64,000 nucleotides of DNA from contig NZ_CP011789.1 of assembly GCF_001636055.1 (NCBI RefSeq), forward strand, positions 5,394,001-5,458,000. Reading direction: 5' to 3'. The notes under the pieces are model-generated. The model was not told the origin of the DNA. It saw only the letters and a program-made list of their open reading frames with translations, and made no database searches. Positions 40,766-58,440 of this stretch are shown piece by piece. A program made the translations under genes and the position numbers. Source of the DNA: Pseudomonas putida (GTDB taxonomy: Bacteria; Pseudomonadota; Gammaproteobacteria; Pseudomonadales; Pseudomonadaceae). Numbering within the stretch: position 1 is the stretch's first letter; each line of letters begins with the position of its first letter.

Positions 40766-41980
40766 ATGATCCCTAATCGCTCTCGCTCAGACCTTGCCCT
40801 GCTCCTGCTCGCCCTGCTGGCCGGTGCGCTGCTGGGCGTCTGGCAGCCGGACCTGGCGGTGCAGATGAAGCCGCTCAGTGACCTGTTCATTTCCATCATC
40901 GGCGTCTGTGCCCCGGTGGTGATGTTCATCCTGGTCTGCTCCAGCACCGCCGCCCTGAGCGACTACCGCGCCACCGCCCGCCTCGGCCTCAAGGCCATGG
41001 CCTACTGGCAACTGATGTCGTTGCTTTCGCTGCTGATTGGCCTGGTGGTGGCTTTGCTGCTGCGCCCTGGTGCGGGGTTGGAAAGCTCCAGCCATGTGTG
41101 GTCGGTGCCGCTGCTGGCCGGCGACGGTCCGATGCTCTCCCGCCTGCCGACCCTGCTGCTCGACTCGCTGGAAGAAAGCCCGATCCTCAAGGTGCTGCTG
41201 GCCGCGTTGGTGTGTGGCCTGCTGCTGGGGCGCAGCGGCGAAACCGGCCGGCGCCTGGCCCGCCAGCTCGACCGGACCATGGCCTGGATGTTCCGCATCA
41301 TGCGCCTGATCGTCAGCTTCGCGCCGCTGGCCGCGTTTGGTGCCATCGCCTTCATCATCGGCAAGTACGGCCTGGACGCCGCCATTCCCCTGGCCAAGTT
41401 CGTCGTTGCTGCCTACGCCGCGTGCCTGGCCTACCTGTTGCTGGTGCCGCTGCTGGTGATGCGTCTGCTCGGCTGTCGCCTGGCGCGGCTGGTGGGCTAC
41501 ATCAAGGAAGAATTGCTGCTGGTGATCTCGACCGGTTCGTCGGTGGCCGCCCTGCCGCGCCTGGTGGAAAAGCTCGAAGCGGCGGGTTGCGACAGCCAGA
41601 CCCTGCGCCTGACCCTCACTGCCGGCTACAGCTTCAACCTCAATGGCTCGAGCCTGTACCTGATCGTCGCGGTGCTGTTTCTCGCACAGCTTGGGCATAT
41701 CGACCTGACTCCCTCGCTGCTGGCGACCATCGTGCTGGTCAGCCTGTTCACCTCGCTCGGCTCGACCAGCGTGGCCGGCTCGGCCTTCGTCACCCTGGCG
41801 GCGACCTTGAGCGTGCTGGACATCGTGCCGCTGGAGAGCATCGGTTTGCTGATTGGCGTGGAGCGGCTGATGAAATGCCGGTCGGTGACCAATGTGGTGG
41901 GCAATTGTGTGGCGTGCCTGGCGATTGCCTGGTGGCACGGGAAGGTGGATCGAGGGCGGTTGCGCGAGGTGTTGGGTTAG
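40766..41980 (+). CDS. Dicarboxylate/amino acid:cation symporter (DAACS family)
   Basis: This 404-residue membrane protein is of the GltP/DctA/SstT group. It has eight helices and two re-entrant loops; the first hairpin is STGSSVAALPRLVEKLEAAG (family form SSxATLP), and the substrate and ion site lies in GYSFNLNGSSLYLIVAVLFL, the equivalent of NxDGT. The usual Asp in NxDG is replaced by Leu-Asn (NLNGSS). It would take up dicarboxylates or acidic or neutral amino acids with protons or sodium. It is divergent from the LysR gene. Confidence 0.83.
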   Translation: MIPNRSRSDLALLLLALLAGALLGVWQPDLAVQMKPLSDLFISIIGVCAPVVMFILVCSSTAALSDYRATARLGLKAMAYWQLMSLLSLLIGLVVALLLRPGAGLESSSHVWSVPLLAGDGPMLSRLPTLLLDSLEESPILKVLLAALVCGLLLGRSGETGRRLARQLDRTMAWMFRIMRLIVSFAPLAAFGAIAFIIGKYGLDAAIPLAKFVVAAYAACLAYLLLVPLLVMRLLGCRLARLVGYIKEELLLVISTGSSVAALPRLVEKLEAAGCDSQTLRLTLTAGYSFNLNGSSLYLIVAVLFLAQLGHIDLTPSLLATIVLVSLFTSLGSTSVAGSAFVTLAATLSVLDIVPLESIGLLIGVERLMKCRSVTNVVGNCVACLAIAWWHGKVDRGRLREVLG

Positions 41981-42620: not shown

Positions 42621-42627
42621 GATGCCG

Positions 42628-44220
42628 TTATTGCCCGGCGAGCTTGTCGAAGGCCTTGTCCAGCGCCGCATCGGCATCCACCAGCTTCTGCCGGTGCAGC
42701 TTCATCCAGTCCTGGTCCGCCGCCAGGCGCTTGCCCGCTTCCATCAGCATGCGCCGCACTTCGTTCGGCTGTGGCCCACCAGTGCCCTGGCGACTCTCGA
42801 CCATCGCCCGTGGCGACAGGCTGGCGCGGAAGGCGGTCTCGCTCAGCGGCAGCTGGTCGTCCTGCCATTTGTACTTCTTCGCGGCCTGGGTATAGAGCGC
42901 CTGGGCATCGGCGTAGGCGAAGTCCTTGGGCAGCGTGCCCTCGGCACGGGCCTTCTCGACGATCAGCGAGGCAAAGCTGTGGCCGATGCGGAACGGCACG
43001 TGGTGCTGGCGCTCCAGGGTGTCGGCCAGCTCCATCGACGTGGTCCAGTCTGCGTCCAGTTCCTCTTCGGCCCGAGCAGCGTTGATCTGCAGGGCATCGA
43101 GCACCAGGTCCATGCGCTCGAACATTTCGTTGGCCGACTTGAACAGCCCCAGATCGTCGAACGCGGCCTTGTAGTCGGTCATACCGGTAGTGACGTTATG
43201 CGCTCGCACGGTGGTGGCGTTGGCCAGCCCGACCACATCGGAGGCCGACTCGCGGGTGCGCATCAGCAAGCCCGGGTTGCGCTTCTGCGGCATGGCGCTG
43301 CTGGTGTAGGTCGAACCCTCGTCGAGCAGCAGCCACGGGCGGGTCTGGTGGTACTGGGTGTGGATATCGCCAATGATCGCGCCCACGCGAATGGCCGACG
43401 ACGAGGCAATGCTCGCAGCCTCCAGCGGAATGTCGTAGGTCGACACCTGGCTGGCATCCAGCGAGTTCTCACGCAGGCCATCGAAGCCCAAGAGCGTTGC
43501 CAGGCGCTCGCGGTTGAGCGGGTAACCGGAGTTGGCCAGCACCGCGGTGCCCATCGGGCTCAGGTTCAGGCGCGCATAGAGGTCATGGATGCGCTGGGCA
43601 TCGCGCTGGAACGACGCCTCGTAGGCCAGCAGGTAGTGGGCGTAGCTGATCGGCATGGCCTGCACGCCGTTGGTGTAGGCCGGCACCAGAGTGTCGACGT
43701 TGACCGAGGCCAGCTTGAGCAGACGCTGGCGGGTGGCGTTCAGGGCGTCGCTGTAGTCCAGCACTTCGGCGCGCAGCGAGGCCAGGCGATAGGTGGCGTA
43801 CATGTCCTGGCGGCTGCGCCCGGAGTGGATCAACGAAGCCTGCGGACCAATCTTGTCGATCATCACCTGCTCAAGCTGCAACACATCGCTGGGGCGCTTG
43901 CCGTCGGGCTGCTTGGCCTGGTCGATGGCATAGCGCACGCCGCCGGCGATCACCTTGCCCTGGTCGGCCGGCACGATGCCCTGCTCGGTAAGCATGACGA
44001 TGGAGGCCTTGTTGATGCGGTTGAGCCAGTCGAACTGGCTTTCCTGCTGGCCCCCCTTGAGCGCGGACTTGTCGACGGTGGCGCCGATCTTGCGCGCCTG
44101 CTCGGCGCATTCGGCGGTGGTCTTGCACGGCAGGTCGGCAGTGTTGGCGGCCTGGGCCGTGGCAGCGGCGAACAGGGCGTAGGTAATGGCCAGGTAGAGC
44201 GGGGTCTTTCTTGTTGTCAT
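42628..44220 (-). CDS. Exported argininosuccinate lyase-family protein
   Basis: This protein of about 530 residues belongs to the fumarase/aspartase superfamily and is closest to argininosuccinate lyase in layout: HSGRSRQDMYATYRLASLRA, and the signature SSAMPQKRNPGLL. Unlike cytoplasmic ArgH, it begins with a signal peptide (MTTRKTPLYLAITYALFAAA, ending AQA) and has Cys in LPCKTTAEC near the mature start. It should therefore act in the periplasm. The ATG at 44220 has CGGAACCGAAACC before it. The normal product pair would be arginine and fumarate, but no reaction can be assigned. It is divergent from the two-partner secretion operon. Confidence 0.8.
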   Translation of the reverse strand: MTTRKTPLYLAITYALFAAATAQAANTADLPCKTTAECAEQARKIGATVDKSALKGGQQESQFDWLNRINKASIVMLTEQGIVPADQGKVIAGGVRYAIDQAKQPDGKRPSDVLQLEQVMIDKIGPQASLIHSGRSRQDMYATYRLASLRAEVLDYSDALNATRQRLLKLASVNVDTLVPAYTNGVQAMPISYAHYLLAYEASFQRDAQRIHDLYARLNLSPMGTAVLANSGYPLNRERLATLLGFDGLRENSLDASQVSTYDIPLEAASIASSSAIRVGAIIGDIHTQYHQTRPWLLLDEGSTYTSSAMPQKRNPGLLMRTRESASDVVGLANATTVRAHNVTTGMTDYKAAFDDLGLFKSANEMFERMDLVLDALQINAARAEEELDADWTTSMELADTLERQHHVPFRIGHSFASLIVEKARAEGTLPKDFAYADAQALYTQAAKKYKWQDDQLPLSETAFRASLSPRAMVESRQGTGGPQPNEVRRMLMEAGKRLAADQDWMKLHRQKLVDADAALDKAFDKLAGQ

Positions 44221-44507
44221 GGTTTCGGTTCCGCGAGTGTGTCGCTCAGGAGGGGCGAACATGGCGGGATGCTAGCGGCGGGTTTGGAAGATTAAAAATA
44301 TATTAAAAATATCCAACCAATATCTCTCTAGTATGGAGAGCGGCGATGGCAACTTGATACTTTCAAGATATCAAGACACTCGATTCAAGATATTTTATCT
44401 CGGCAAAAACCGCTGCTAGGATCGGCGCCATAACTCCAATCAAACCGGCCGATCCCCACACACTGCCACGGGATACGACCGGCACCGCACTCTTACGAGG
44501 TGGTTAC
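44221..44507. promoter_or_regulatory. AT-rich divergent promoter region with repeats
   Basis: These 287 bases between the periplasmic lyase and the secretion operon are far more AT-rich than the genes on both sides. They contain cttgata (44353-44359) with its inverse tatcaag (44369-44375), and the direct repeat ttcaagata at 44362-44370 and 44384-44392 (22 bases apart). These are likely operator or promoter elements; no regulator gene lies beside it. Confidence 0.6.
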
Positions 44508-45524
44508 ATGCCGCATCACGCTCTGCGCACATTCGCCCGCTCCCTGCTGCTCCTGGCCGCCAGCCTGCTGGCCGTCCAGGCCGTCGCCGCCCCCCAGACC
44601 CTGCGCCTGGGCGACACTGCCCCCTACAACTTCCTTGCCTTCGCCAACAACGACCTGCAGCGTGCCAGCCTGCCCGTGCAGCGCGCCGTGGTGCTGCTGC
44701 ATGGTGTGCGCCGCAACGCCGACGACTATTACGACAGCGGCGAAAAGCTGCTGGAAAACGCGGGTTTCAGCGCCAGCGACACCTTGCTGCTGGCGCCCAA
44801 CTTCCTCACCCCCAGCGACCGCCGTGCCGGCGACGACATGCCGCTGTGGCCCAAGGACAAGTGGATGCACGGCACCGAGTCGCAGAGCGGGCGCGCCGGT
44901 ATCGCCGGTTTCACCGTGCTCGACGACCTGCTCACCTACCTCGGCAACCGCCAGCATTTCCCGGCACTGAAGGAAATCGTGCTCATCGGTCACTCCGCCG
45001 GTGGTCAGTTGATGCAGCGCTACACCCTGCTCGGCGACGGCGACCAACGCCTGCGCGCCAGCGGCATCCAGGTGCGCTACGTGGTGTCGAGCCCCTCGTC
45101 CTACCTCTACCTGGACGACAACCGCGTGCAGGACGGCGCCTTCAAGCCGGTGCTCACGGTCATGTGCCCAAGCTACAACCAATACCGCTATGGCCTGGAG
45201 CGGGCACCGGCGTACTTCACCCGCCAGGGCCTGAACGCCACCCAGGTGTTCCAGCGCTATGCCGCACGCAACCTGACCTACATGGTCGGCGAGCTCGACA
45301 ACAAACCGGACGACCGGGTCATGGACCGCGCCTGTGGCGCTGCCATGCAGGGCGCTACCCGTGTCGAGCGTCAGCTCAACTACCTGCGCTACGAAGCCTT
45401 CCTCGCGCAGAAATGGCACATCCCCATCGACCACCTGCAATTCCAGGTCAGTAAGGTCGGCCATAACGCCGCCCGCCTGTTCGCCGCGAAAAGCGTTGCC
45501 AGGACCCTGTTCCCGACCCGCTGA
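44508..45524 (+). CDS. Exported alpha/beta-hydrolase
   Basis: This 338-residue protein has a signal peptide (residues 1-28, SLLLLAASLLAVQAVAA). Its alpha/beta-hydrolase core has the nucleophile motif GHSAGG, with Ser at about residue 165, the oxyanion region VVLLHGVRRN, and a C-terminal His in KVGHNAARLFA. It resembles secreted esterases or PHB-depolymerase-like enzymes. It is the first gene of a rightward four-gene operon; the TpsB gene starts 42 bases later. A role in trimming or modifying the exoprotein or its environment is conceivable. It has GAGG before the ATG. Confidence 0.8.
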   Translation: MPHHALRTFARSLLLLAASLLAVQAVAAPQTLRLGDTAPYNFLAFANNDLQRASLPVQRAVVLLHGVRRNADDYYDSGEKLLENAGFSASDTLLLAPNFLTPSDRRAGDDMPLWPKDKWMHGTESQSGRAGIAGFTVLDDLLTYLGNRQHFPALKEIVLIGHSAGGQLMQRYTLLGDGDQRLRASGIQVRYVVSSPSSYLYLDDNRVQDGAFKPVLTVMCPSYNQYRYGLERAPAYFTRQGLNATQVFQRYAARNLTYMVGELDNKPDDRVMDRACGAAMQGATRVERQLNYLRYEAFLAQKWHIPIDHLQFQVSKVGHNAARLFAAKSVARTLFPTR

Positions 45525-45566: not shown

Positions 45567-48500
45567 ATGACCCGGACTTATCTCGCCGCCTCCGTGCGCC
45601 GGGCGTTGCACCCGCGCGCCCTGACCTTCCTCACCGCCGCCGTGCTCGCCGGCCAGGCCCAGGGTGAAACCCTGCCCAGCGCCGGCTCACTGTTCGACAC
45701 CAACCGCGACAGCTTGCGCCCGGCGCAGCGCAGCCAGCAGCCCCAAGGCAACGTGCGCATCGAGGCCGAGGACGACCAGCGCCAGGCCCAGGGCACTACC
45801 CAGGCGGGCCCGTCGTTCAGCTTCAAGGTCACGGCCTTCAAGCTCACCGGCAACCGCGAGATCAGCGAATCGCGCCTGCAACAGGAATTGCAGAACGACC
45901 TCGGCCGCGAACTCGACCTCAACGGCTTGCGCGCCGCCGCCGACCGAGTCACCGCGCTGTACCGCAGCCGCGGTTACCTGGTGGCCCGCGCCTACCTGCC
46001 GCCGCAGGAAATCGAAGGCGGCGTGGTCACCCTTGAGGTGCGTGAGGGCAAGGTCGGCACGGTGCGCACCGAGCCGGGCCCGGGTGTGCGCCTGAATGCC
46101 GGCATGCAGCAGCGTTTCGTCGACGCACTGCCCAGCGGCAGCGTGATTCGCGAGCAGGACATGGAGCGCGTACTGCTGCGCCTCTCCGATATCGCCGGGG
46201 TTTCCGTGCGCGCGGTTCTGCAACCCTCGCGCCAGCCGGGCGCCGTCGACATCGTACTGAAGTTGAGCGAGATGACTGCCTGGACCGGCCGGGTCAGTTT
46301 CGACAACTACGGCAACTACTACACCGGCAGCAACCGGATGAGCACCAACGTCAGCCTCAACGACGCCTTCGGCTTCGGCGAGAGCCTGTACTTCAACAAC
46401 CAGGCCAGCTTCGAGGGCCTGGATATCAAGGGCGTGGGCATGCGCTTGCCGCTGGGTGCCAGCGGCATCAGCGTCGGCGCCAGCTACGCCGAGATGGACT
46501 ACAGCATCGGCAAGGGCCTGAAGACCGCCAACGCCAGCGGCAGCGCCGAGGTTTCGGCACTGTTCGTCGATGCCTCGCTGCTGCGCAGCCGCGACGCCAA
46601 CATCGGCCTGAACCTGGCGCAGGAACACCGTTACTTCGACGACGCCGCTGGCGCCTTCGAGGTGCGCAAGAGCGCCGTGTTCCGAGGCCTGACCCTGTAC
46701 GGCGACTGGCGTGACGGCTGGGCCGGCAGCAACCGCTGGAGCCTGGGCTATGGCATCGGCCACCTGGACAAGAACACCCCGCTCGACGCAGCCCTCGACG
46801 CGCTGACTGCCGAGGCCGCCGGCACCTACCACAAGGGCACCCTGTCGTTCAGCCGCCTGCAGGCGCTCGGCGGCGGTTACTCGCTGTATGCCGCCATCAG
46901 CGGTCAGTGGGCCGACAAGAACCTCGACAGCTCGGAGAAATTCACCCTCGGCGGCCCCAACGGCGTGCGCGCCTACGGGGTCGGCGAAGCGGCCGGTGAC
47001 GAAGGCCTGCTCGGCCGGGTCGAGCTGCGCAAGTACCTGGGCAACATCCATGGCGCCATCGCCGAAGGTGCGCTGTTCGCCGATGCGGGGCGGGTGAAGG
47101 TCAACAAGAAGCCCTGGGACGACAGCGAGAACAGCCTCAGCCGCCACGGCTACGGGGTGGGCCTGAACATCTATCACCGCGACCTGGTGATGAACGCCAG
47201 CCTGGCCTTCTCCAACGGCGACGGTCCGACCAGCGACGAGCGCGACGCCAAGCGTTTCTGGCTCTCGGTCAGCGGCTCGCCGCAGGCCTTCGCGGGCCTG
47301 GCCAAAGACCTCGGCACCCGCGAGGACTTTCGTGACAAGAGCACCGAGCTGACCCTCTACGGCTCGCTGGGCCTGGTGCCCGAGTACGTCGATCGGCGCG
47401 ACTCGACCCGCGCGGCCCCCGCCGACCAGAGCAAACTGGCCACGCCCAACGGGCGCAACATGAACAGCTACCTGCGTGCCCGCGACAACGTTTCTTATGT
47501 CGGTGCCCGTGCCGGTATCCCGATCAACGACACCTCGCGCTTCCTGTGGCAGCTCGAATACGGCATCTCGGTCAACTACACGCTGTCGGGCGACGAAACC
47601 GCGCCCAAGTCGATTTCGCCCAACACCCGCCTGCGCAACTCCGCCGTGGCCTTCGACGACGACCGCTACGGCACCCTGCTCTACGGGGTCTGGGACATGC
47701 CGCTCAAGGAGAGCACCACCAGCCTCGATCCGTTCAACGGCAAGACCGCTGGCGCCTACTACAACATCATCGGCTCGCCGGGCTTCAACGTCAGCATGGC
47801 CAGCAACGTCAACGGCCCGGCCAGCAGGGCCGACAGCAGCGAAAGCTCCGATGCCGCGTTCAACCGGCGCCAGTCCGGCATGGTCGCCTGGTGGTCGCCG
47901 GAGTGGAACGGCCTGACGCTCAAGCTGGCCTACTCCAACAACGGCACCCGAGCCGCCGAAGACGTCGACAACGGCTACCTCTATGGCGGCAGCCTGACGT
48001 ACCAGAACGGTGGCTTCACCGCGGTGGCTGCGGCCGAGCGCCATGTCGACTACTTCGGCATCGCCAGCCTTGGCCGCAACTCGCGTGGGGTCGGCAGCAA
48101 CACCCACGTCACCGACGGCACATCGTCCAACGACTACAGCTACCGCCTGGGCCTGGGCTACCAGATCGGCAACACCCAGCTGTCGCTGGTGGCAGACGAA
48201 CTGCACTACGCCGAGGATGGCGTGGTGAACAACAGCCTCAACGTCAGCGACCTGTCCGACTACAAGCGCCGCGCCTACATGCTCGGCGTCAGCCACCGCC
48301 TCGGCGCCTGGCGCCTGCGTGCCAGCTACGCCCGCGCCCTGGCCGGCGATTGCAAGATGATCTCGGCGGCCGGTTATCAGTGCGACACCAGTGGCATGGG
48401 TGCACGCCAGTACGCCCTGGGCGTGGGTTATCGCCTGAGCCGCAACAGCGAGATCTTCGCCCACTACGTGCTGCTGCAGAACGAGTCGCTGGCCAACTAC

Positions 48501-48599
48501 AACTTCGCCGTGGTCGGCGCCTTTGCCGCCAGCGGCTACTCGCCGGGCGTGGGCACCACGATCAACGCCATCGGCACCGGCTTCAACTATTCGTTCTGA
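45567..48599 (+). CDS. TpsB two-partner secretion transporter fused to a porin-like barrel
   Basis: This 1010-residue outer-membrane protein has a signal peptide (residues 1-34). POTRA-type domains lie around residues 85-230 (FKVTAFKLTGNREISESRLQ, YRSRGYLVARAYLPPQEIEG). The ShlB/FhaC barrel follows, with the VRGY-type motif GGPNGVRAYGVGEAAGDEG (about 462-480). A usual TpsB ends near residue 560-590. Here the frame goes on for about 415 residues that read like a Gram-negative porin (LTLYGSLGLVPEYVDRRD at about 596 and GTGFNYSF at the end). The C-terminal Phe is the usual last residue. The TpsA gene starts 10 bases after the stop. Confidence 0.85.
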   Translation: MTRTYLAASVRRALHPRALTFLTAAVLAGQAQGETLPSAGSLFDTNRDSLRPAQRSQQPQGNVRIEAEDDQRQAQGTTQAGPSFSFKVTAFKLTGNREISESRLQQELQNDLGRELDLNGLRAAADRVTALYRSRGYLVARAYLPPQEIEGGVVTLEVREGKVGTVRTEPGPGVRLNAGMQQRFVDALPSGSVIREQDMERVLLRLSDIAGVSVRAVLQPSRQPGAVDIVLKLSEMTAWTGRVSFDNYGNYYTGSNRMSTNVSLNDAFGFGESLYFNNQASFEGLDIKGVGMRLPLGASGISVGASYAEMDYSIGKGLKTANASGSAEVSALFVDASLLRSRDANIGLNLAQEHRYFDDAAGAFEVRKSAVFRGLTLYGDWRDGWAGSNRWSLGYGIGHLDKNTPLDAALDALTAEAAGTYHKGTLSFSRLQALGGGYSLYAAISGQWADKNLDSSEKFTLGGPNGVRAYGVGEAAGDEGLLGRVELRKYLGNIHGAIAEGALFADAGRVKVNKKPWDDSENSLSRHGYGVGLNIYHRDLVMNASLAFSNGDGPTSDERDAKRFWLSVSGSPQAFAGLAKDLGTREDFRDKSTELTLYGSLGLVPEYVDRRDSTRAAPADQSKLATPNGRNMNSYLRARDNVSYVGARAGIPINDTSRFLWQLEYGISVNYTLSGDETAPKSISPNTRLRNSAVAFDDDRYGTLLYGVWDMPLKESTTSLDPFNGKTAGAYYNIIGSPGFNVSMASNVNGPASRADSSESSDAAFNRRQSGMVAWWSPEWNGLTLKLAYSNNGTRAAEDVDNGYLYGGSLTYQNGGFTAVAAAERHVDYFGIASLGRNSRGVGSNTHVTDGTSSNDYSYRLGLGYQIGNTQLSLVADELHYAEDGVVNNSLNVSDLSDYKRRAYMLGVSHRLGAWRLRASYARALAGDCKMISAAGYQCDTSGMGARQYALGVGYRLSRNSEIFAHYVLLQNESLANYNFAVVGAFAASGYSPGVGTTINAIGTGFNYSF

Positions 48600-48609
48600 G
48601 GAGACGACC

Positions 48610-51600
48610 ATGCACGCCACCCTTTCCCGTCGTCGCCAACGACCGACACTCAAACCCCTGGCCCTCGCGGTACTTTGCGCCGTGCACGGCCTGATGCCGC
48701 AGCACGCCATGGCGCTGGACGCAGGCGCCCTGCCAACGAACGGCCAGATCACCTCCGGCAGCGGCGGCATCAGCCAGGCCGGCAATGTGCTGGACGTGAC
48801 CCAGAACAGCCAGCAGTTGATCGCCACCTGGGAGCGCTTCAACATCGGCAAGGACGCCCAGGTCAACTTCCACCAGCCCAACGCCTCGGCGGTCGCGCTG
48901 AACCGGGTGACCGCCAGCGACGCCTCGCAGATCCTCGGCCAGCTCAACGCCAACGGCCAGGTGTACCTGATCAACCCCAGCGGCGTGCTGTTCGGCAACG
49001 GTGCGTCCGTCAACGTCGGCGGCCTGGTCGCCAGTACCCTGGATATCAACGACGACGACTTCAAGGCCGGTCGCCTGCGCTTCCAGGGTGACGGCCAGCG
49101 CGGCGCGGTGATCAACCAGGGCACCCTGCGCGCCGCCGACGGTGGCAGCGTTGCCCTGCTCGGCGGCGAGGTGCGCAACGAAGGCGCGGTGATCGCGCGG
49201 ATGGGCTCGGTGGTGCTCGGCGGCGGCGAGAAGATTACCCTCGACTACAACGGCGACGGCCTGATCAACCTGCAGGTCGATGAAGCGGCAGTCGGTGCCA
49301 GCGTCGCCAACCGCGGCCTGCTGCAGGCCGACGGCGGCACCGTGCTGATGAGCGCGCGCACCAGCGATGCAATGGTCGGCAGCGTGGTCAACAACGAAGG
49401 CGTGATCGAGGCGCGCAGCCTGCAACAGCGCAACGGCCGGATCGTCCTGGACGGCGGCGACAATGGCATGGTCGCCAACAGCGGGGTGATCGACGCCTCC
49501 GGCCGTGGCGCAGGCGAGCATGGCGGCAACGTGACCCTGACCGGCGAATACGTCGGCCTGTTCGAGCAAGGCCGCATCGACACCTCCGGCAGCACCGGCG
49601 GCGGCACCGTACTGCTGGGCGGCGACTACCAGGGCAGCGGCCCGCTGCACCAGGCCACGGCGACCTACATGGGCGAGAATGCGCGCATCGAGGCCAACGC
49701 ACTGGGCGACGGCGACGGTGGCAAGGTCATCCTCTGGTCGCGTGACAGCACCCGCTTCGAAGGAGTGATCAGCGCCACGGGCGCCGGTGCCGGCAAGGGC
49801 GGGCTGGTCGAGACCTCCGGCAACGCGCTGGACGTCACCGGCCTGGTCAACCTGGCGGCAGCGTCCGGCCAGGGCGGCACCTGGCTGCTCGATCCGTTCA
49901 ACATCAACATCACCAGCGGTGCCAGCAATGGCACCTCCAGCAGCAGCCCATTCACCCCCAACGCCGGGCGCAGCTCCAACCTCAGCTCGGCGACGCTCAA
50001 CGCTTCGCTCAGCGAAGGCGCCAATATCATCGTGCAGACCTCTTCCGGGGCGGGCACCTCCGGCGACATCAACGTCCTGGACAACGTCAAGGCCCGAGGC
50101 AATGCCAGTCTGACGCTGATCGCCCACCGCAACGTCAACATGAACGGCACCAGCATCAGCAACGCCGACGGCAAGTCGCTGAACGTCTCGATGCTGTCGA
50201 ACTTCAACAACAGCGGCAACGGCTCCATCGCTCTGAACAACGCCACCATCAACACCAACGGCGGCAAGCTCACCCTCGGCAGCGCGGCCGACCCGGTCAA
50301 CGGCTACGCCAGCACCAACGTCAGCAACGGCACGGGCGTGGCCATCAGCAACGGCACGCGGATCACCACCAACGGTGGCGACATCAGCCTCCGTGGCGCG
50401 ACCTCGAGTACCCTGGCATCAGGCGCCAGCGCCACGGCGGTGAGCATCTCGGGCAGTACCCTGGATGCCGGTGGCGGCAACATAAACATCATTGCCCGCC
50501 AGGCCAGCACCAGCGGCACAGGCGATGCCTTCATCCTCACCGGCGGCAGCAACCTGCTCACCGACGGCGCAGGCTCCATCGCCATCAGCGCCGACAACCT
50601 CGGCGGCGGCAACGGCGCGCGGGTGTTCAGCACCAGCAACAACATCGCCGCCCGCGGCGCGGGCAATGTCACCCTCAGCGGCAATGCCGTTTCAGGTTTC
50701 GGCGTGCTGGTCTGCTCCACCGCAGCAGGCTCCACGCAGAATCTTTCGGTGGGCAGCGGTACGCTTACGGTCAAGGGCAGTAGCGCCAGCAACCGCGGCC
50801 TGTATGTAGCCGCCTCCGGCACCGGCGCGGTCAACCTGCGCGGCGACAACGGCGGGCGCATCGTGCTCGGTGGCGACAGCGGCGGCAGCTATGGCACCGC
50901 GCTCAACGTCACGGGCGCCAGCGCTTCGATCAACCTGACCAGCGCTGGCGACATCACCGTCGAAGGCAATACCACTGGCGGCAGCACCCCGGCCCTGGCG
51001 CTGATCGCGGCGGGCAACGGCAACGCCAACACACCGGGCTCACGCATCAACATCGCCAGCAGCGCAGGCGACGTGCGGCTCAGAGCCGACAACGCGGTGA
51101 TCAACACCGGCTCCGGCTCGTTCCGTGCGCTCTACCTGGATGCCAGCGGCGACTACTCGAACATCCGCGTCAACAGCGCCAGCGGCAACCTGGTGCTGGA
51201 AGGCACCAGCGCCTCGGGGCGCGGCGTCGACATCGCGCCATCCGGCCGTGGCGCCGCCATCGACCTGGGCAGCGACAGCGGCGATGTGCTGATCAGCGGC
51301 ACCAGCAGCAACAGCTGGGGCGGCTACGGCATCTTCCTCAACTCCACGGGCAGCTCGCGCGGCGTAGCCATCACCACAGGGACTGGCAACATCACCCTGC
51401 GTGGCGACTCGGTCGGCACCTCCGATGCCATCGCCCTGGGCGGCAGCGGCACCGCCTCGACCAACCGCATCAGTTCCAAAGGCGGCAACATCCTGCTCGA
51501 CGGCCACTTCCACTCGCCCAACAACGACGAACTGGACCACGGTATCGCCCTGCTCAGCGTCACCAACATCATCCAGACCACCGGCTCCGCCAATGTCAGC

Positions 51601-52443
51601 CTGGTCGGCCGCGCTACCGCCGCAGGTGATGCCATCGACTTCTACAGCAGTGGCATCAACCGCCTGAGCGTCGAAAACGGCACCCTCAGCCTCGACGGCA
51701 GCGCGGTCGCTGCCCATGGCATCAGCATGCTCACCGGGCAGACCGACCTGCGCGCCACCGGCAGCGGCTCGATCAGCCTCCAGGGCTATTCGCAGCAGGC
51801 CAACGGCATCCACTTCTACCCCTCAAGCGCCAGCAGCTCGGTCACCATCGCCACCCAGGATGGCGCCATCAGCCTGAACGGGCGCAGCGACGGCGGCGCC
51901 AACGGCAACGGCGTGTTCCTGCGCACCGGGCCCAATGGTGTGATGATCCAGTCGGCAGGTGGCGATATCAGCCTGAGCGGCACCGGCAGCAACGGCGCCA
52001 CCGGCATCACCTTCAACGGCTCGGGCAGCGGTGCCAACAGCCTGATCGCCGCTGGCCACGGCAACCTGACCCTCACCGCCCGCAGCGACAGTGGCACGGC
52101 GCTGAACTTCGCCAGCGGCAGCAACCTGCTGCAGGTCGACGACGGTGTGCTGCTGATCGATACCGACAGCGACAGCGGCGCCTATATCGTCCACGGCAGC
52201 GACAGCACCACCCTCACCGCCAACGGCGGCGCGGTGCTGCAGCGCCTGGGCGGGCTGGTCAACGCCACGCTGCTCGAGCGCAGCAGCGCCGATGTGCGGG
52301 GCTACCAGCAAAAACAGATGGCCAACGCCAACTGGAGTCAGGTGCTCTACCCTGACTACCGGCAAACGCCGTTGCAGCCGCAGCTCGACCAGATCCACCT
52401 GGACCTGGCCCTGCTCGGCGACGACACGCTCGCGCAAGACTGA
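48610..52443 (+). CDS. TpsA exoprotein (filamentous haemagglutinin-like adhesin)
   Basis: This 1277-residue secreted beta-helix protein has an N-terminal signal (MHATLSRRRQRPTLKPLALA onwards) and the two-partner secretion domain (QQLIATWERFNIGKDAQVNF, then NPSGVLFGNGASVNVGGLVA, the NPNGI-type motif). Gly/Asn/Ser/Thr-rich repeats follow, including GGTWLLDPFNINITSGASNG. About 13 N-x-S/T sequons lie in the 155 residues after that point, likely targets for the glycosyltransferase encoded next. The start at 48610 has GAGGAGACGACC before it. The C-terminus has no anchor or Cys pair that I can see. The TpsB gene is upstream and the glycosyltransferase gene begins 9 bases after the stop. Confidence 0.88.
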   Translation: MHATLSRRRQRPTLKPLALAVLCAVHGLMPQHAMALDAGALPTNGQITSGSGGISQAGNVLDVTQNSQQLIATWERFNIGKDAQVNFHQPNASAVALNRVTASDASQILGQLNANGQVYLINPSGVLFGNGASVNVGGLVASTLDINDDDFKAGRLRFQGDGQRGAVINQGTLRAADGGSVALLGGEVRNEGAVIARMGSVVLGGGEKITLDYNGDGLINLQVDEAAVGASVANRGLLQADGGTVLMSARTSDAMVGSVVNNEGVIEARSLQQRNGRIVLDGGDNGMVANSGVIDASGRGAGEHGGNVTLTGEYVGLFEQGRIDTSGSTGGGTVLLGGDYQGSGPLHQATATYMGENARIEANALGDGDGGKVILWSRDSTRFEGVISATGAGAGKGGLVETSGNALDVTGLVNLAAASGQGGTWLLDPFNINITSGASNGTSSSSPFTPNAGRSSNLSSATLNASLSEGANIIVQTSSGAGTSGDINVLDNVKARGNASLTLIAHRNVNMNGTSISNADGKSLNVSMLSNFNNSGNGSIALNNATINTNGGKLTLGSAADPVNGYASTNVSNGTGVAISNGTRITTNGGDISLRGATSSTLASGASATAVSISGSTLDAGGGNINIIARQASTSGTGDAFILTGGSNLLTDGAGSIAISADNLGGGNGARVFSTSNNIAARGAGNVTLSGNAVSGFGVLVCSTAAGSTQNLSVGSGTLTVKGSSASNRGLYVAASGTGAVNLRGDNGGRIVLGGDSGGSYGTALNVTGASASINLTSAGDITVEGNTTGGSTPALALIAAGNGNANTPGSRINIASSAGDVRLRADNAVINTGSGSFRALYLDASGDYSNIRVNSASGNLVLEGTSASGRGVDIAPSGRGAAIDLGSDSGDVLISGTSSNSWGGYGIFLNSTGSSRGVAITTGTGNITLRGDSVGTSDAIALGGSGTASTNRISSKGGNILLDGHFHSPNNDELDHGIALLSVTNIIQTTGSANVSLVGRATAAGDAIDFYSSGINRLSVENGTLSLDGSAVAAHGISMLTGQTDLRATGSGSISLQGYSQQANGIHFYPSSASSSVTIATQDGAISLNGRSDGGANGNGVFLRTGPNGVMIQSAGGDISLSGTGSNGATGITFNGSGSGANSLIAAGHGNLTLTARSDSGTALNFASGSNLLQVDDGVLLIDTDSDSGAYIVHGSDSTTLTANGGAVLQRLGGLVNATLLERSSADVRGYQQKQMANANWSQVLYPDYRQTPLQPQLDQIHLDLALLGDDTLAQD

Positions 52444-52451
52444 GGCCCGCC

Positions 52452-54293
52452 ATGAACCAGACCCCGTTCGCGCTGGAACACTTCGAACAGCTCTGCTACA
52501 CGCGCCAGCACGAGGAGGCGGCGCGCGAGCTGGTGCGCCTGCTGCTGATCATCGACCGCCACTACGGCAAGCTGTCCGGGGAGTTCAGGCTGTCGGTGTC
52601 GCCGGCAGTGCCCGAGGACGAACTCGAAGCCCACGTGCTGACGCGCCTGACCTGCGCGATCAGCGCACTGTTCAGCGATCCGCAGTTCCAGATCAGCCCC
52701 GGTGGCTTCGACCAGCTGATCAACTTCCAGCGCTGGCTGTCGGCGCTGTTCGCCGCCAGCGCCTTCATCAACGCCGACCACATCCTGCGCACCCTCAACC
52801 TGCACGGCCAGGACAGCCAGCGCTTCGAAGTGGCGCCGGAACAACAGGTGAAGTTCTGCATTCTCTACTCGCCGGAGTCGCAGTTGCCGCTGGATGTGGA
52901 ACTGTTGTGGACGCAGAACCCGCAACTGGCGATGGCGCTGTTCATGGCCCTGCTGTCGCCGCGCTTTCTCGGCACGCCTGCGGCGCACTCCAAGCGCGAG
53001 GTGCTGCTGGCCTGGCTGCCCGAACGGCTGGACAGCCTCGACAGCCTCGATCAGTTGCCGCTGGCGATCATCCACGACGTGTACATGCACTGCAGCTACG
53101 CTGACCTGCCGCAGCGTCACCGCATCAAGCGTTCGATCTGCCGCCTGATCGAGCGCAAGCTGGACGCCGAAGGCATCGCCTCGCTGCCTGCGCCAGCCAG
53201 CACGCGCCAAGGCAAGCCGCGCATGCTGGTGGTGCTGGAATGGTTTTCCGGTGCTCATTCGATCTACCGCACCCACTCGCGCACCCTGGAAGCGGCCCGT
53301 GAGCATTTCGAGCTGTGGGCAGTCGGCTATGCCAACAATGTCGACGAATTGGGGCGCAAGGTGTTCGACCGCTTCATCGAACTCAAGGCCCCGGACGACC
53401 TGCTCGCCTGCGTGCGCCAGGTGCGCAGCCTCGCCGAACAAGCGCGCCCGCAGGTGCTGTACATGCCCAGTGTCGGCATGTTCCCGCTCACCCTGTTCGT
53501 CGCCAACCTGCGCCTGGCGCCGTTGCAGGTGGCCGCGCTCGGGCACCCGGCGACCACCGGCTCGCGGCATGTGGACTACATCAGCGTCGAGGAGGACTTC
53601 GTCGGCGACCCTGCGTGCTTCAGCGAGCGCCTGCTGCTGTTGCCCAGCGACGGCCAGCCGTACCGCCCCTCGGCAATCGAAGTCAGGCTCGGTGCCCGCG
53701 AACGCCTCGACAGCCCCGAGGTGGCCATTGCCGTGGCGGCCACCACCATGAAGCTCAATCCGAAGTTTCTCCAGGCCTGCCAGCAGATCGTCGAGCGCAG
53801 CAGCGAGCGCCATGGCCGCCGCGTGCGCCTGCACTTTCTCATCGGCCAGGCGCAGGGGTTGCTCTATCCGCAGCTACAGCGCCTGATCCGCCGCTATGTC
53901 CCGGATGCCGTAGTGCACCCGCACCAGCCTTATGCGCAGTACCTGGACACCTTCGACCGTTGCGACCTGTTCCTCAGTCCGTTTCCGTTCGGCAACACCA
54001 ACGGCATCATCGACGCCTTCACCTTGGGGTTGCCGGGGGTGTGCAAGACCGGGCCGGAGGTGTTCGAGCATATCGACGAGGGGTTGTTCAGGCGGGCGGG
54101 GTTGCCTGGGTGGACCATTGCCGCGACGGTGGAGCAGTACATCGAGGCGGCAGTGCGCATGGTGAGCGAGCCGACGCAGCGTGGCGCGCTGTATGCGCAT
54201 CTGGGGAGTGGAAAGCCGTTACAGCGGTTGTTCGAGGGCAGGCCGGAGATTTTTGCCGAGCATTTGCTGGCATTACTGGCGTGCCGTAGCTGA
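52452..54293 (+). CDS. HMW1C-like N-glycosyltransferase (GT41)
   Basis: This 613-residue cytoplasmic enzyme resembles HMW1C of Haemophilus and the ApHMW1C of Actinobacillus, which attach hexoses to Asn in N-x-S/T sequons of TpsA adhesins before export. The conserved parts are GHPATTGSRHVDYISVEEDF and SPFPFGNTNGIIDAFTLGLP, then GVCKTGPEVFEHIDEGLFRR. The N-terminal 200 residues are helical. It is the last gene of the operon and has TGAGG ahead of its ATG, so it is coupled to TpsA translation. The donor is probably UDP-glucose or UDP-galactose, by family. Confidence 0.88.
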   Translation: MNQTPFALEHFEQLCYTRQHEEAARELVRLLLIIDRHYGKLSGEFRLSVSPAVPEDELEAHVLTRLTCAISALFSDPQFQISPGGFDQLINFQRWLSALFAASAFINADHILRTLNLHGQDSQRFEVAPEQQVKFCILYSPESQLPLDVELLWTQNPQLAMALFMALLSPRFLGTPAAHSKREVLLAWLPERLDSLDSLDQLPLAIIHDVYMHCSYADLPQRHRIKRSICRLIERKLDAEGIASLPAPASTRQGKPRMLVVLEWFSGAHSIYRTHSRTLEAAREHFELWAVGYANNVDELGRKVFDRFIELKAPDDLLACVRQVRSLAEQARPQVLYMPSVGMFPLTLFVANLRLAPLQVAALGHPATTGSRHVDYISVEEDFVGDPACFSERLLLLPSDGQPYRPSAIEVRLGARERLDSPEVAIAVAATTMKLNPKFLQACQQIVERSSERHGRRVRLHFLIGQAQGLLYPQLQRLIRRYVPDAVVHPHQPYAQYLDTFDRCDLFLSPFPFGNTNGIIDAFTLGLPGVCKTGPEVFEHIDEGLFRRAGLPGWTIAATVEQYIEAAVRMVSEPTQRGALYAHLGSGKPLQRLFEGRPEIFAEHLLALLACRS

Positions 54294-54316: not shown

Positions 54317-54425
54317 CTTTCGCGGGCAAGCCCGCTCCCACATGAGCTGCCCCCCAAAAGCGGACGGGTGTCCAACATTTGAGAGGCTGCTCATAAACCT
54401 GCAGGAGCGGGCTTGCCCGCGAAAG
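54317..54425. repeat. Inverted REP pair between convergent genes
   Basis: Arms ctttcgcgggcaagcccgct (54317-54338) and the inverse (54404-54425) lie between the rightward glycosyltransferase gene and the leftward dehydrogenase gene. They probably end both transcripts. Confidence 0.85.
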
Positions 54426-54442
54426 CGCCAGTCAGATCATCC

Positions 54443-55936
54443 TCAAAGGCTAGGGAACGCGAACTGCGACGCCTCGTGGCTCTTGCGCTGCGGCCAGCGC
54501 TGGGTAATCGCCTTGCGACGGGTATAGAAGCGCACGCCATCCGGCCCATAGGCATGCAGGTCGCCAAACAGCGAGCGCTTCCAGCCACCAAAGCTGTGGT
54601 AGCTCACCGGCACCGGCAACGGCACGTTCACACCCACCATGCCTACTTCGATCTCGTCGCAGAACAGCCGTGCGGCCTCGCCATCGCGGGTGAAGATGCA
54701 GGTGCCGTTGCCGTATTCGTGATCGTTGATCAGTTGCATGGCCTGCTCCAGGCTCTGCACGCGCACCACGCACAGCACTGGCCCGAAGATCTCCTCCTGG
54801 TAGATGCGCATCTGCGGCGTCACCCGGTCGAACAAGGTACCGCCAACGAAGTAGCCGTTCTCGTTGCCCGCCACCGAGAAACCGCGACCATCGACCACCA
54901 GCTCGGCCCCTGCCGCGACACCATCGTCGATATAGCCCAGCACCTTGTCGCGTGCAGCCGCCGTCACCAGAGGGCCCATGTCCAGACCACACTGGGTGCC
55001 GGCACCGATCTTCAGCGCCTTGATCTGCGGCTCCAGCTTGGCGATCAGCGCATCGGCAACCTGGTCGCCCACGCACACCGCCACCGAGATCGCCATGCAG
55101 CGCTCGCCGCACGAGCCGTAGGCGGCGCCCATCAACGCGTTGACCGCATTGTCCAGCTCGGCATCGGGCATCAGCACCGCATGGTTCTTCGCCCCGCCCA
55201 ACGCCTGCACACGTTTGCCGCGCTTGGTGCCTTCGGCATAGATGTATTCGGCGATCGGCGTCGAACCGACAAAGCTCAGCGCCTTGACTTCCGGAGCCTC
55301 GATCAGCGCGTCCACCGCCTCTTTGTCGCCATGCACCACGTTGAGAATGCCCTTGGGCAGGCCAGCCTCATGCAGCAGTTGGGCGATGAACAGGGTCGAG
55401 CTCGGATCGCGCTCCGAGGGTTTGAGGATGAAGGCGTTGCCGCAGACGATGGCCAGTGGGTACATCCACAGCGGCACCATCGCAGGGAAGTTGAACGGAG
55501 TAATCCCGGCCACCACGCCCAGCGGCTGGAAGTCGGACCAGGCGTCGATGTTCGGGCCGACGTTGCGGCTGTACTCGCCCTTGAGAATTTCGGGCGCAGC
55601 ACAGGCGAACTCGACGTTCTCGATACCGCGCTTCAACTCGCCGGCGGCATCCTCGATGGTCTTGCCGTGCTCTTCGCTGATCATCTGCGAAATGCGCGCC
55701 TCGTTCTGCTCCAGCAGTTGCTTGAAGCGGAACATCACCTGGGCGCGCTTGGCCGGTGGCGTGTTACGCCAGGCCGGGAACGCGGCCTTGGCCGAATCGA
55801 TGGCCGCCTGCACGGTGGCACGGTTGGCCAGTTCGAGTTGATGGATGACCTGGCCGGTGGCGGGGTTGAACACCTCGGCAGTGCGCCCGCCGCTGGCGAC
55901 CGATTCGCCGTGGATCAGATGCTTGATCGTCGCCAT
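54443..55936 (-). CDS. mmsA: Methylmalonate-semialdehyde dehydrogenase (CoA-acylating)
   Basis: This 497-residue enzyme of the aldehyde dehydrogenase superfamily has the CoA-acylating MmsA pattern: RAQVMFRFKQLLEQNE, PFNFPAMVPLWMYPLAIVCG, GGAKNHAVLMPDAELD (in place of ELGGK) and the catalytic Cys in YGSCGERCMAISVAV. Such enzymes convert methylmalonate semialdehyde or malonate semialdehyde to propionyl-CoA or acetyl-CoA with NAD. The ATG at 55936 has AAGGAG eight bases upstream. It is the last gene of a leftward group with RidA- and amine-oxidase-like genes, so a semialdehyde arising from an N-substituted beta-amino acid is a likely substrate. Confidence 0.88.
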   Translation of the reverse strand: MATIKHLIHGESVASGGRTAEVFNPATGQVIHQLELANRATVQAAIDSAKAAFPAWRNTPPAKRAQVMFRFKQLLEQNEARISQMISEEHGKTIEDAAGELKRGIENVEFACAAPEILKGEYSRNVGPNIDAWSDFQPLGVVAGITPFNFPAMVPLWMYPLAIVCGNAFILKPSERDPSSTLFIAQLLHEAGLPKGILNVVHGDKEAVDALIEAPEVKALSFVGSTPIAEYIYAEGTKRGKRVQALGGAKNHAVLMPDAELDNAVNALMGAAYGSCGERCMAISVAVCVGDQVADALIAKLEPQIKALKIGAGTQCGLDMGPLVTAAARDKVLGYIDDGVAAGAELVVDGRGFSVAGNENGYFVGGTLFDRVTPQMRIYQEEIFGPVLCVVRVQSLEQAMQLINDHEYGNGTCIFTRDGEAARLFCDEIEVGMVGVNVPLPVPVSYHSFGGWKRSLFGDLHAYGPDGVRFYTRRKAITQRWPQRKSHEASQFAFPSL

Positions 55937-55940
55937 GACC

Positions 55941-56300
55941 TTACTCCTTGACTGCGGCCTGAACGGCGATTTCAACGAGGATATTCTCGGCGGCAAGGTT
56001 GGCCTCGACGGTAGCGCGGGCTGGCAGTGCATCCTTCGGTACCCAGGCGTCCCAGGCGGCGTTCATTTCGGCGAAGTCCTGCACCGCGTGCTTGAGCCAC
56101 ACCTGGGCGAAGAGGATGTGCGACTTGTCGGAGCCGGCCTCGGCGAGCAGCTCGTCGATGCGCGCCAGCACCTGGGCGGTCTGGCCACGCACGTCCTGGG
56201 TACGGTCGGCCGGGACTTGGCCGGTGACATAGACGATGCCGTTGTGCACGAGGGCGTGGCTGAGGCGGTTGTTGTTGGGCTGGAAACGTTGGATGGACAT
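55941..56300 (-). CDS. RidA-family reactive imine deaminase-like protein
   Basis: This 119-residue protein has the YjgF/RidA fold: SHALVHNGIVYVTGQVPADR, then QTAQVLARIDELLAEAG, and the conserved C-terminal ARATVEANLAAENILVEIAV with the Arg and the Glu of the active site. The start at 56300 has GGAG upstream. RidA proteins hydrolyse 2-imino acids or enamines. Its place between the IclR gene and MmsA, near flavin amine-oxidase genes, suggests it removes the imine formed by those oxidases. It ends five bases before mmsA starts. A small hairpin (56350-56368) lies in the gap to the IclR gene. Confidence 0.85.
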   Translation of the reverse strand: MSIQRFQPNNNRLSHALVHNGIVYVTGQVPADRTQDVRGQTAQVLARIDELLAEAGSDKSHILFAQVWLKHAVQDFAEMNAAWDAWVPKDALPARATVEANLAAENILVEIAVQAAVKE

Positions 56301-56389: not shown

Positions 56390-57181
56390 TCAGGTCAAAG
56401 GGCGCAGGCTGCGCACGGCACTGGCAATCGAACGCGCGGTGTTGATCACCTTCGGCGCCAGGTCCTTCCTGGCCTCCTCCAGGCTCCAACGCCCCAGCGG
56501 CACGGCGACGTTGACCGCGCCCAGCGGGTAGCCATCGGCATTGACCACCGCCGCCGCCACGCTGATGTCACCGACGTAGTACTGCTCGCTGGCGAAGGCA
56601 TGGCCGTCCTTGCGCGCATTGGCGATGATCTCGCGCAGGCGCTCGCGGTCGGTCACAGTGCTGGAGGTGTGCGCGATCAGCTGCGAGGCATCGAGGATGG
56701 CCTCGCTCTCGCGCTCCGGCAGCGCCGCCAGGTAGGCACGGCCGGCGGCGGTGCAGTACATCGGCAGGTGACGGCCCAGTGGCACGTGGATCGGGATCTG
56801 CTTGTGGCTGGGGAAGCGCGCCACATAGAGCATGTCCATGCCGCAGGGCTCGAGCAGGTTGCAGCTCTCGCCGGTGTCGCGGTTGAGCTCGTGCAGGTAG
56901 GGGTTGGCGCGCTCGACCAGCTCGCTGGTCTGCAGGTAGCCCGAGCCCAGGTCGAGCGAGCGCGGGGTCAGGCGATAGCGCTTGGTCACGGCATCCTTGG
57001 CCAGGTAGCCGAGGGTTTCGAGGGTGTACACCGAGCGCTGCACCGTGCTCTTGTTCAGGCCCGTGGCTTCGGCCAGCTCGACCAGGTTCATGCTCGGCCG
57101 GCCACTGCGAAACGCAGTGACGACCGCCAGCCCCTTGGACAGGGCGGTGACGAACAGGGGCGATTCTTCAGCGGCGCTCAT
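56390..57181 (-). CDS. IclR-family transcriptional regulator
   Basis: This 263-residue IclR-type protein has a winged helix at residues 10-75 (MNLVELAEATGLNKSTVQRS) and an effector domain of the IclR type (TAAGRAYLAALPERESEAIL, SVAAAVVNADGYPLGAVNVA). I use the ATG at 57181 (MSAAEESPLF) with AAGGA eight bases ahead. It lies between the oxidase genes and RidA/mmsA on the same strand and probably controls both sets. The inducer would be the imported amine or a product. Confidence 0.85.
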   Translation of the reverse strand: MSAAEESPLFVTALSKGLAVVTAFRSGRPSMNLVELAEATGLNKSTVQRSVYTLETLGYLAKDAVTKRYRLTPRSLDLGSGYLQTSELVERANPYLHELNRDTGESCNLLEPCGMDMLYVARFPSHKQIPIHVPLGRHLPMYCTAAGRAYLAALPERESEAILDASQLIAHTSSTVTDRERLREIIANARKDGHAFASEQYYVGDISVAAAVVNADGYPLGAVNVAVPLGRWSLEEARKDLAPKVINTARSIASAVRSLRPLT

Positions 57182-57270
57182 GGCGTTCGATCCTTTTTTG
57201 ACAGCTCTGAGGGAGGCAACCCGGACGGCCGGCTCGGCCGCCGCGAAAGGATGCTCCCATTCACGGTTGT

Positions 57271-58440
57271 TCATTCGAAATGACTCAGCACGATGCCCGG
57301 CTCGACCACCGGACGCCCTTGTACGAAGCGCTCGACAGCGAAGGGTTTCATGCGTTCGTCCACCGTCCCTTCGACGATGGCCCTGGCCAGCAGCTCGCCG
57401 GCCGCCGGCGCCCCGGCATGGCCGTAGCACCAGCCGGCACTGACGAACAGCCCCGGCAAGGCGGGATGCGCCCCCAGCAATGGCCCGAAATCGGGCGAAA
57501 TGTGGACCAGCCCGGCCCACTGGCGAAGGATACGCGCCTGGCCCAGTTGCGGGAACATCTCCATGTAGGCCTTGGCGGTCGCCGCCATCACCGGGACGTC
57601 GGCATTGAGGGTGTCCTGCGGGCGCTCGGCCACCTCGGCGCCGCCCACCACCTCGCCACGGGCGGTCTGGTGCATGTAGCAGAGCCGGTCGAGCAGGGCC
57701 ACGGCCGGGCCGATCAGCGGGCGAGTCGGCTCCAGGGCCATGGCTTCGAGGCGCATCGGGTAACCCTCCAGCGGCACGCCGGCCATCTGCGCCAGGCTAT
57801 TGCTGTTGGCGCCACCGGCCAGCACCACGACGTCGGCATCGATGCGTTGCTCCCCTACCCGCACGCCGCTGACGCGGCCCGCGCTGCGGTCGATGGCCGC
57901 GACCGGCGTGCGATAGCGCAGGGTCACGCCCAGGCGCTCGCAGGCCTTGTGATAGGCATGCATCGCCGCATGGTGCGGTGCCACGCCACTGCCCGGCAGA
58001 TGCAGGGCGGCGCTGACCCGTTCGTGGGCCAGGGCCGGCAGCACCCTGCGCAACTGTGCCGGGTCGAGCAGCTGCGAATCGATGCCGCATTCGCGGTGCA
58101 CTTCGCGGGTACGGTGCAGCAGTTCGGCGGTGGCCGTGCGCTCGCCGATCATGCTGTAGCCGCGCATCGAGTACATGACGTTCTCGCCCAGGCGCCGCGA
58201 CAGGCCATGCCAGAGCTGGTTGGAGTAGGCAAAGAAGCGCGTCCACTCCACCGAGCTGAAGGCACCACGGATCAGCGTGCCGTTGCGCCCCGACGCACCG
58301 CCCTGCCAGTAGCCGGCATCCAGCACGAGAATGTCACGCACGCCGCGCTCGGCCAGGTTGAACGCCAGCGACAGGCCTTGGATGCCGGCGCCGACGATGA
58401 GGATGCTGCAGCGCTTGGGCAGCGGGGCATTCAGGTTCAT
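57271..58440 (-). CDS. FAD-dependent amine oxidoreductase (DAO family, SoxB/opine-oxidase-like)
   Basis: This 389-residue flavoprotein has an N-terminal FAD dinucleotide motif (IVGAGIQGLSLAFNLAERGV, GxGxxG at residues 17-22) and the DAO-fold end with ISPDFGPLLGAHPALPGLFV, then SAGWCYGHAGAPAAGELLAR. It resembles the beta subunit of sarcosine or opine oxidases and HcnC. It starts on the stop of the upstream large-subunit-like gene (ATGA overlap) and pairs with it. Such enzymes oxidise secondary amines to imines. Confidence 0.85.
   Translation of the reverse strand: MNLNAPLPKRCSILIVGAGIQGLSLAFNLAERGVRDILVLDAGYWQGGASGRNGTLIRGAFSSVEWTRFFAYSNQLWHGLSRRLGENVMYSMRGYSMIGERTATAELLHRTREVHRECGIDSQLLDPAQLRRVLPALAHERVSAALHLPGSGVAPHHAAMHAYHKACERLGVTLRYRTPVAAIDRSAGRVSGVRVGEQRIDADVVVLAGGANSNSLAQMAGVPLEGYPMRLEAMALEPTRPLIGPAVALLDRLCYMHQTARGEVVGGAEVAERPQDTLNADVPVMAATAKAYMEMFPQLGQARILRQWAGLVHISPDFGPLLGAHPALPGLFVSAGWCYGHAGAPAAGELLARAIVEGTVDERMKPFAVERFVQGRPVVEPGIVLSHFE

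Follow-up and report, generated by a model that had tools for sequence, protein, structure and literature searches.

Transporters of two-partner secretion (TPS) such as FhaC and CdiB have two POTRA domains and a 16-strand barrel with a barrel-motif Arg and Asp, and are accompanied by an adjoining gene for the TpsA partner. A survey of the Omp85/TpsB superfamily from 2014 reports, in the part available to us, no additional domain profiles with TpsB-type barrels (PMC4104836). Outer membrane proteins with several barrels are nonetheless known. Two or three fused barrels in one protein are described for MnoP and its relatives in alpha-proteobacteria (PMC4827864), and two barrels are predicted for GfcD (PMC11494523); in the accessible parts of these papers, the examples belong to other barrel families and none couples a TpsB to a solute porin. 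What, then, is to be made of a TpsB that continues into a porin? The gene in question occupies positions 45567..48599 (forward strand) of a 64,000-nucleotide stretch of the Pseudomonas putida genome (NZ_CP011789.1, positions 5,394,001 to 5,458,000), hereafter the window. Its product shares with FhaC and CdiB the two POTRA domains, the 16-strand barrel, the motif Arg and Asp and the adjoining TpsA, but its chain runs on for 440 residues after the first barrel to form a second one, and the Phe that terminates a TpsB is replaced by Pro. A first-pass annotation of the window had called the arrangement not standard. As far as the sources just cited go, this is true of the pairing of TpsB with a porin, which resembles GfcD and the MnoP relatives only in having more than one predicted barrel per chain, and not of two-barrel proteins in general. 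Among the matches listed in the open-licence PMC literature, no title or abstract describes a TpsB-porin fusion. Solan et al. are said to have surveyed multi-barrel proteins in 2021, and their survey may include this architecture.

The gene is a single frame of 1010 codons from an ATG, uninterrupted by any internal stop, which bears out the annotation in its claim of a frame running on past the end of a TpsB. Third-codon-position GC is alike across the two halves (0.90 vs 0.91). Searched with hmmscan, the 1010-residue chain matches the Pfam families POTRA_2 (residues 86-161, 70.9 bits), ShlB (225-534, 83.2 bits) and Porin_4 (594-973, 62.0 bits, cut-off 27), which follow one another along the chain in this sequence and are all above their curated cut-offs. 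A signal peptide, judged by eye, covers residues ~1-33 and ends in AQG (45567..45665). It is followed by the first POTRA domain (45822..46049), by a second at residues ~162-235 (46050..46271), placed from the secondary structure of the model and alignment to FhaC/CdiB, and by the TpsB barrel at residues 239-570 (46281..47276), delimited by the predicted model and the same alignment. A linker (residues 571-595; 47277..47351) leads to a 16-strand porin barrel of the Omp32/PorB type (residues 596-1010; 47352..48596), in which F1010 ends the chain and the constriction loop L3, with a conserved IIGSPGF, spans residues ~711-767 (47697..47867). That a TpsB and then a whole porin-type barrel share one chain, as first proposed, is supported by Pfam, a profile search of the PDB, two structure predictions and structural alignment.

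Could an assembly error or a frameshift have joined two neighbouring genes? Nothing was found that speaks for this, and the conserved open frame refutes it. Among 56 protein clusters matching residues 590-1010, 55 are full-length chains of 1004-1031 residues, 40-99% identical, with ShlB followed by the porin half, and they come from several sources. Of 398 Pseudomonas genomes sampled, 8 (the window's own counted) also carry the frame free of internal stops, as do 2 of 399 in family f11. The 56th cluster (P0010, 626 residues) likewise carries ShlB and Porin_4. Many of the fusion proteins already have domain labels or names of both kinds, ShlB and porin, in the databases, so that the fusion is visible in annotation.

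How does the first half compare with an ordinary TpsB? A sequence search pairs it with CdiB, TpsB4 and other proteins of solved structure that bear POTRA domains, and the 16-strand barrel of the model can be aligned structurally to solved FhaC and CdiB. The transporter half looks functional, because R468, Y470 and D506 of the barrel are kept in all 50 aligned fusions, and the adjoining tpsA gene supports, from gene order, the export of a surface protein through it. What differs is the end of the barrel. The 42 unfused relatives examined, out of 67, all stop at the TpsB barrel with a chain-terminal Phe, mostly seven residues past a Trp in the last strand (a few have another residue in the place of the Trp). 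Elsewhere in the window's genome, five further TpsB-like matches lie in open frames of 568-600 residues, so the tail is not a property of every TpsB in the clade. In the 50 fusions the Trp (W565) is invariant, and so is the residue seven positions on, a Pro (P572), with QAF next in nearly all. The usual ending of a single-barrel TpsB, an aromatic residue at the last strand, is thereby replaced, and Phe is the last residue of the porin in 50/50. Between the two barrels the linker varies from 22 to 28 residues in these 50. Comparison of the sequences supports a terminal Phe signal that has moved from the TpsB barrel to the end of the porin, and the second barrel's end may be the only one that BAM, the barrel assembly machinery, reads.

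The moved signal invites a simpler account, in which the porin half does no more than provide the BAM signal that gets the TpsB barrel folded, and the fusion, as a neutral accident, became fixed in a single lineage. The loss of Phe at the internal barrel end and its presence at every C-terminus agree with this, as does a quick tree in which 18 sampled fusion TpsB domains form one clade, lying on one side of a branch (support of 100 in the approximate likelihood-ratio test, SH-aLRT) opposite 42 unfused relatives and three rows from the window's genome. The tree fits a single fusion event. However, the internal Phe would be expected to go whichever barrel came after it, and a neutral tail would decay, whereas the fusions keep a near-constant length in three genera and many invariant porin residues, L3 included. 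This account appears quite improbable.

The second half was modelled both within the chain and alone. The full-length model has the 16 TpsB strands (239-570) followed by a second barrel (596-1009). Modelled alone, the C-terminal part (predicted local distance difference test, pLDDT, 82.3; predicted template modelling score, pTM, 0.85) is predicted to form a closed 16-strand barrel with an L3 constriction loop; domain residues 46-66 are taken as one broken strand in this count, and the structural alignment spans 8-424. Two closed barrels in one chain are supported by these models. A single-sequence phmmer search of the porin half against the PDB gave no match, and a 13-row profile matched Omp32 (5e-19), PorB and chitoporins; the closest folds are those of Omp32, PorB and chitoporin. 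From the anion-selective porins of the Omp32 type (PDB 1e54, 2fgq) and PorB, the fused porin differs by its attachment to a TpsB, by a longer L3, which has invariant residues conserved across the fusions, and by one of the three Omp32 constriction arginines that it does not keep. Fold and genome context together suggest that the second barrel acts as a pore. Since the cluster search is limited to proteins whose length is 0.55-1.75 times that of the query, stand-alone porins were sought separately. The eight hits were four fusion pieces and four full-length porins at 28-33% identity (P0060-P0063); by eye, two of the latter, P0061 and P0063, have a coiled-coil-like stretch ahead of the barrel.

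The surroundings of the gene recall another system. HMW1A is held at the cell surface through a C-terminal cysteine pair, and in Haemophilus influenzae the genes for HMW1A, HMW1B and HMW1C bring together a TpsA, a TpsB and an HMW1C-type enzyme, as here. Operons of this type are described in PMC5422565. In the window, tpsA (48610..52443, forward; TPS secretion domain PF05860, 149.5 bits) begins 10 nucleotides 3' of the fusion gene and is followed after 8 nucleotides by a gene for an HMW1C-type N-glucosyltransferase (52452..54293, forward) with HMW1C_N and HMw1_D2 domains, whose 644 bits against NF049992 are under the 1000-bit cut-off. A gene for an alpha/beta hydrolase (44508..45524, forward), whose product by eye has an apparent signal peptide, ends 42 nucleotides 5' of the fusion gene. 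Each of the 15 loci of this type (the window, L001-L006, L024-L030 and L101) has the full set of hydrolase, fusion, TpsA and HMW1C, here called cassette A, with the order unchanged. No hydrolase, HMW1C, lyase or symporter gene was found at the 16 loci with an unfused TpsB relative (L031-L041 and L104-L108), some of which have short flanks. In three cassette-A loci (L025, L027, L028) the TpsA match is ~300 residues shorter than elsewhere, and the same three are without the lyase. In comparison with HMW1ABC, the TpsB bears a porin, genes for a hydrolase, a lyase and a symporter are added, and TpsA, with cysteines at 23 and 702 only, is without the C-terminal pair. TpsA has 28 NX(S/T) sequons; shuffling gives an expectation of 20.6, and 2.6% of 500 shuffled sequences reached the observed count.

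Might the porin half instead belong structurally to the secretion machine, as a trimer that gathers three TpsB barrels or anchors TpsA, with uptake incidental? The closest folds, those of Omp32, PorB and chitoporin, are trimeric porins, and a TpsA without the cysteine pair of HMW1A may need another anchor. HMW1C glycosylation, moreover, antagonises release in H. influenzae (PMC5422565). This explanation deserves to be weighed and is still unlikely: it leaves unexplained the conserved long L3 with its invariant residues and the company that the fusion keeps with a dicarboxylate symporter and a lyase that appears to be exported, and other TpsB proteins have no porin half.

That company begins with an argininosuccinate-lyase-like gene (PF00206; 42628..44262, reverse strand), whose product has an apparent signal peptide by eye and the signature motif of the argininosuccinate-lyase superfamily in the form TSSAMPQKRN. 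Its 210.3 bits fall under the NCBIfam argH cut-off of 279.5. Fumarate is the product that members of this superfamily typically release. Next to it are genes for a sodium:dicarboxylate symporter of the SDF family (40766..41980, forward; PF00375, 241.9 bits) and a LysR-type regulator (P0064; 39717..40727, reverse, with the true start probably at 40664). Relatives of the lyase lie divergent upstream in four cassette-A loci and between tpsA and the HMW1C gene in eight; in the remaining three genomes (G140, G321, G048) the lyase is elsewhere, beside SDF symporter and LysR genes. Despite its varying position the lyase is thus present in 15/15 cassette-A genomes, and the symporter is at the locus in 8/15. 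The lyase occurs in 28 of 298 Pseudomonas genomes (E up to 1e-80), among them the fusion genomes G000, G037, G044, G048 and G140; the other three Pseudomonas fusion genomes (G301, G321, G327), from outside this sample, have it too. Five of the 23 fusion-free lyase genomes were opened. In two of them (L119, L120) the lyase adjoins an OprD porin, with a LysR-SDF pair as well in L119, and in two others (L116, L117) it adjoins TRAP dicarboxylate genes, with DctP and DctM scanned in L116 and genes that start with the same sequences in L117. In these two fusion-free Pseudomonas loci the lyase and TRAP genes also have beside them a bacteriorhodopsin-like gene (PF01036, from a scan of L116 alone) and a neighbour gene (L116:4949-6516, L117:9201-10729). 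Genome comparison supports the link between lyase and fusion, and it is mainly because lyase, outer membrane porin and dicarboxylate transporter are repeatedly found together that the fused porin is read as the uptake channel of the lyase pathway.

The reading that we favour, with confidence evenly balanced between belief and doubt, is of a two-barrel protein whose TpsB exports TpsA and whose Omp32-like porin admits an anionic, dicarboxylate-type nutrient for periplasmic breakdown. How would the parts work together? The HMW1C-type enzyme probably N-glucosylates TpsA in the cytoplasm, after which TpsA would be exported by Sec and threaded outward through the TpsB barrel, and would remain on or near the cell, binding substrate-bearing material. 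Beside it, the fused porin most likely admits a small anionic compound of the dicarboxylate type to the periplasm. There it would be degraded by the hydrolase and the argininosuccinate-lyase-like enzyme, and the SDF symporter would take up a C4-dicarboxylate product such as fumarate. Through the fusion, the pore for uptake would sit beside the surface protein, which would bind the source of the substrate. A linker of ~26 residues suffices, because both barrels begin and end on the periplasmic side, and the C-terminal signal of the porin probably hands the whole chain to BAM. The arrangement suggests that export and uptake are joined in a single molecule in some soil bacteria. The fuller version, a bidirectional one-chain device in which a glycosylated surface protein captures substrate and the fused porin imports an anionic product, captured or released, for a periplasmic lyase and the inner membrane SDF symporter, is more tentative and falls somewhat short of an even chance.

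Several observations weigh against this uptake reading. The full-length model is only moderate (pLDDT 69.6, pTM 0.50) and does not give the mutual placement of the barrels. The Omp32 constriction arginines, a cluster for anion selectivity, are R38, R75 and R133; in a HMMER alignment read by hand, two of the three have equivalents (R690 in 46/50 fusions and R768 in 50/50), and the place of one is taken by a Tyr. Precomputed Pfam porin labels are on only 36 of the 56 clusters, though the unlabelled ones align across the whole porin half, and L003 shows no Pfam porin match, yet its porin half aligns throughout. The co-occurrence of fusion and lyase (hypergeometric P = 5e-6) is calculated with shared ancestry ignored. 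In four Herbaspirillum loci the symporter was not seen in the stretches covered, of which only that of L113 extends past HMW1C, and near the lyase of L118, where other genes are unscanned, neither a porin nor a dicarboxylate transporter was recognised. Finally, two loci (L102:5531-15159 and L103:1540-10352) hold a second, diverged type of TpsB-porin cassette, with fusion domains 40-42% identical and TpsA present, in which HMW1C, lyase and the cassette-A hydrolase were not found. L102 instead has a gamma-glutamyltransferase and DLH-type hydrolases, and L103 has genes that begin with similar sequences. As this gene set differs, the substrate need not be common to all fusions; the second type is possibly the same design with another substrate. 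Organism names of the clusters point to Polaromonas as its genus.

The named clusters come from Pseudomonas, Polaromonas and Herbaspirillum. One locus, L001 from Pseudomonas wayambapalatensis, is very near to the window (97% across the fusion). One of the two f11 fusion genomes has two copies 16 kb apart, no full fusion was found in 398 genomes of family f20, and in a phylum-wide sample of 398 the window's own genome was the sole carrier. Plasmids gave no fusion of this family: tblastn with the porin half returned 11 plasmid records, all below 60% identity (24-28% as listed). The genome G768 was taken up as a second fusion for its 933-residue open frame and rejected, since the match is to TpsB only and the listed frame of 650 residues stops at the TpsB barrel. 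Porins of other types may also have fused to a TpsB, independently or over a wider range. Past the cassette lie genes for methylmalonate-semialdehyde dehydrogenase, an IclR regulator and an FAD oxidoreductase (54443-56032, 56390-57520 and 57271-58599, all reverse); among the fusion loci searched, only L001 and L006 have the dehydrogenase, which is probably unrelated. Forward-strand frames at 54413-55948 and 42622-44295 were set aside as genes, with no family above cut-off and the likely genes on the reverse strand. Four proteins of the locus gave no match to PADLOC defence families.

If the uptake reading is true, evolution can build a protein exporter and a solute porin into a single chain, and the fusion would be a natural case for the folding by BAM of two serial barrels with the terminal signal on the last only. 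Two-partner secretion would then serve feeding, beyond adhesion, toxicity and competition, as a secretion system turned to nutrient acquisition, and the operon would offer a testable class of substrate.
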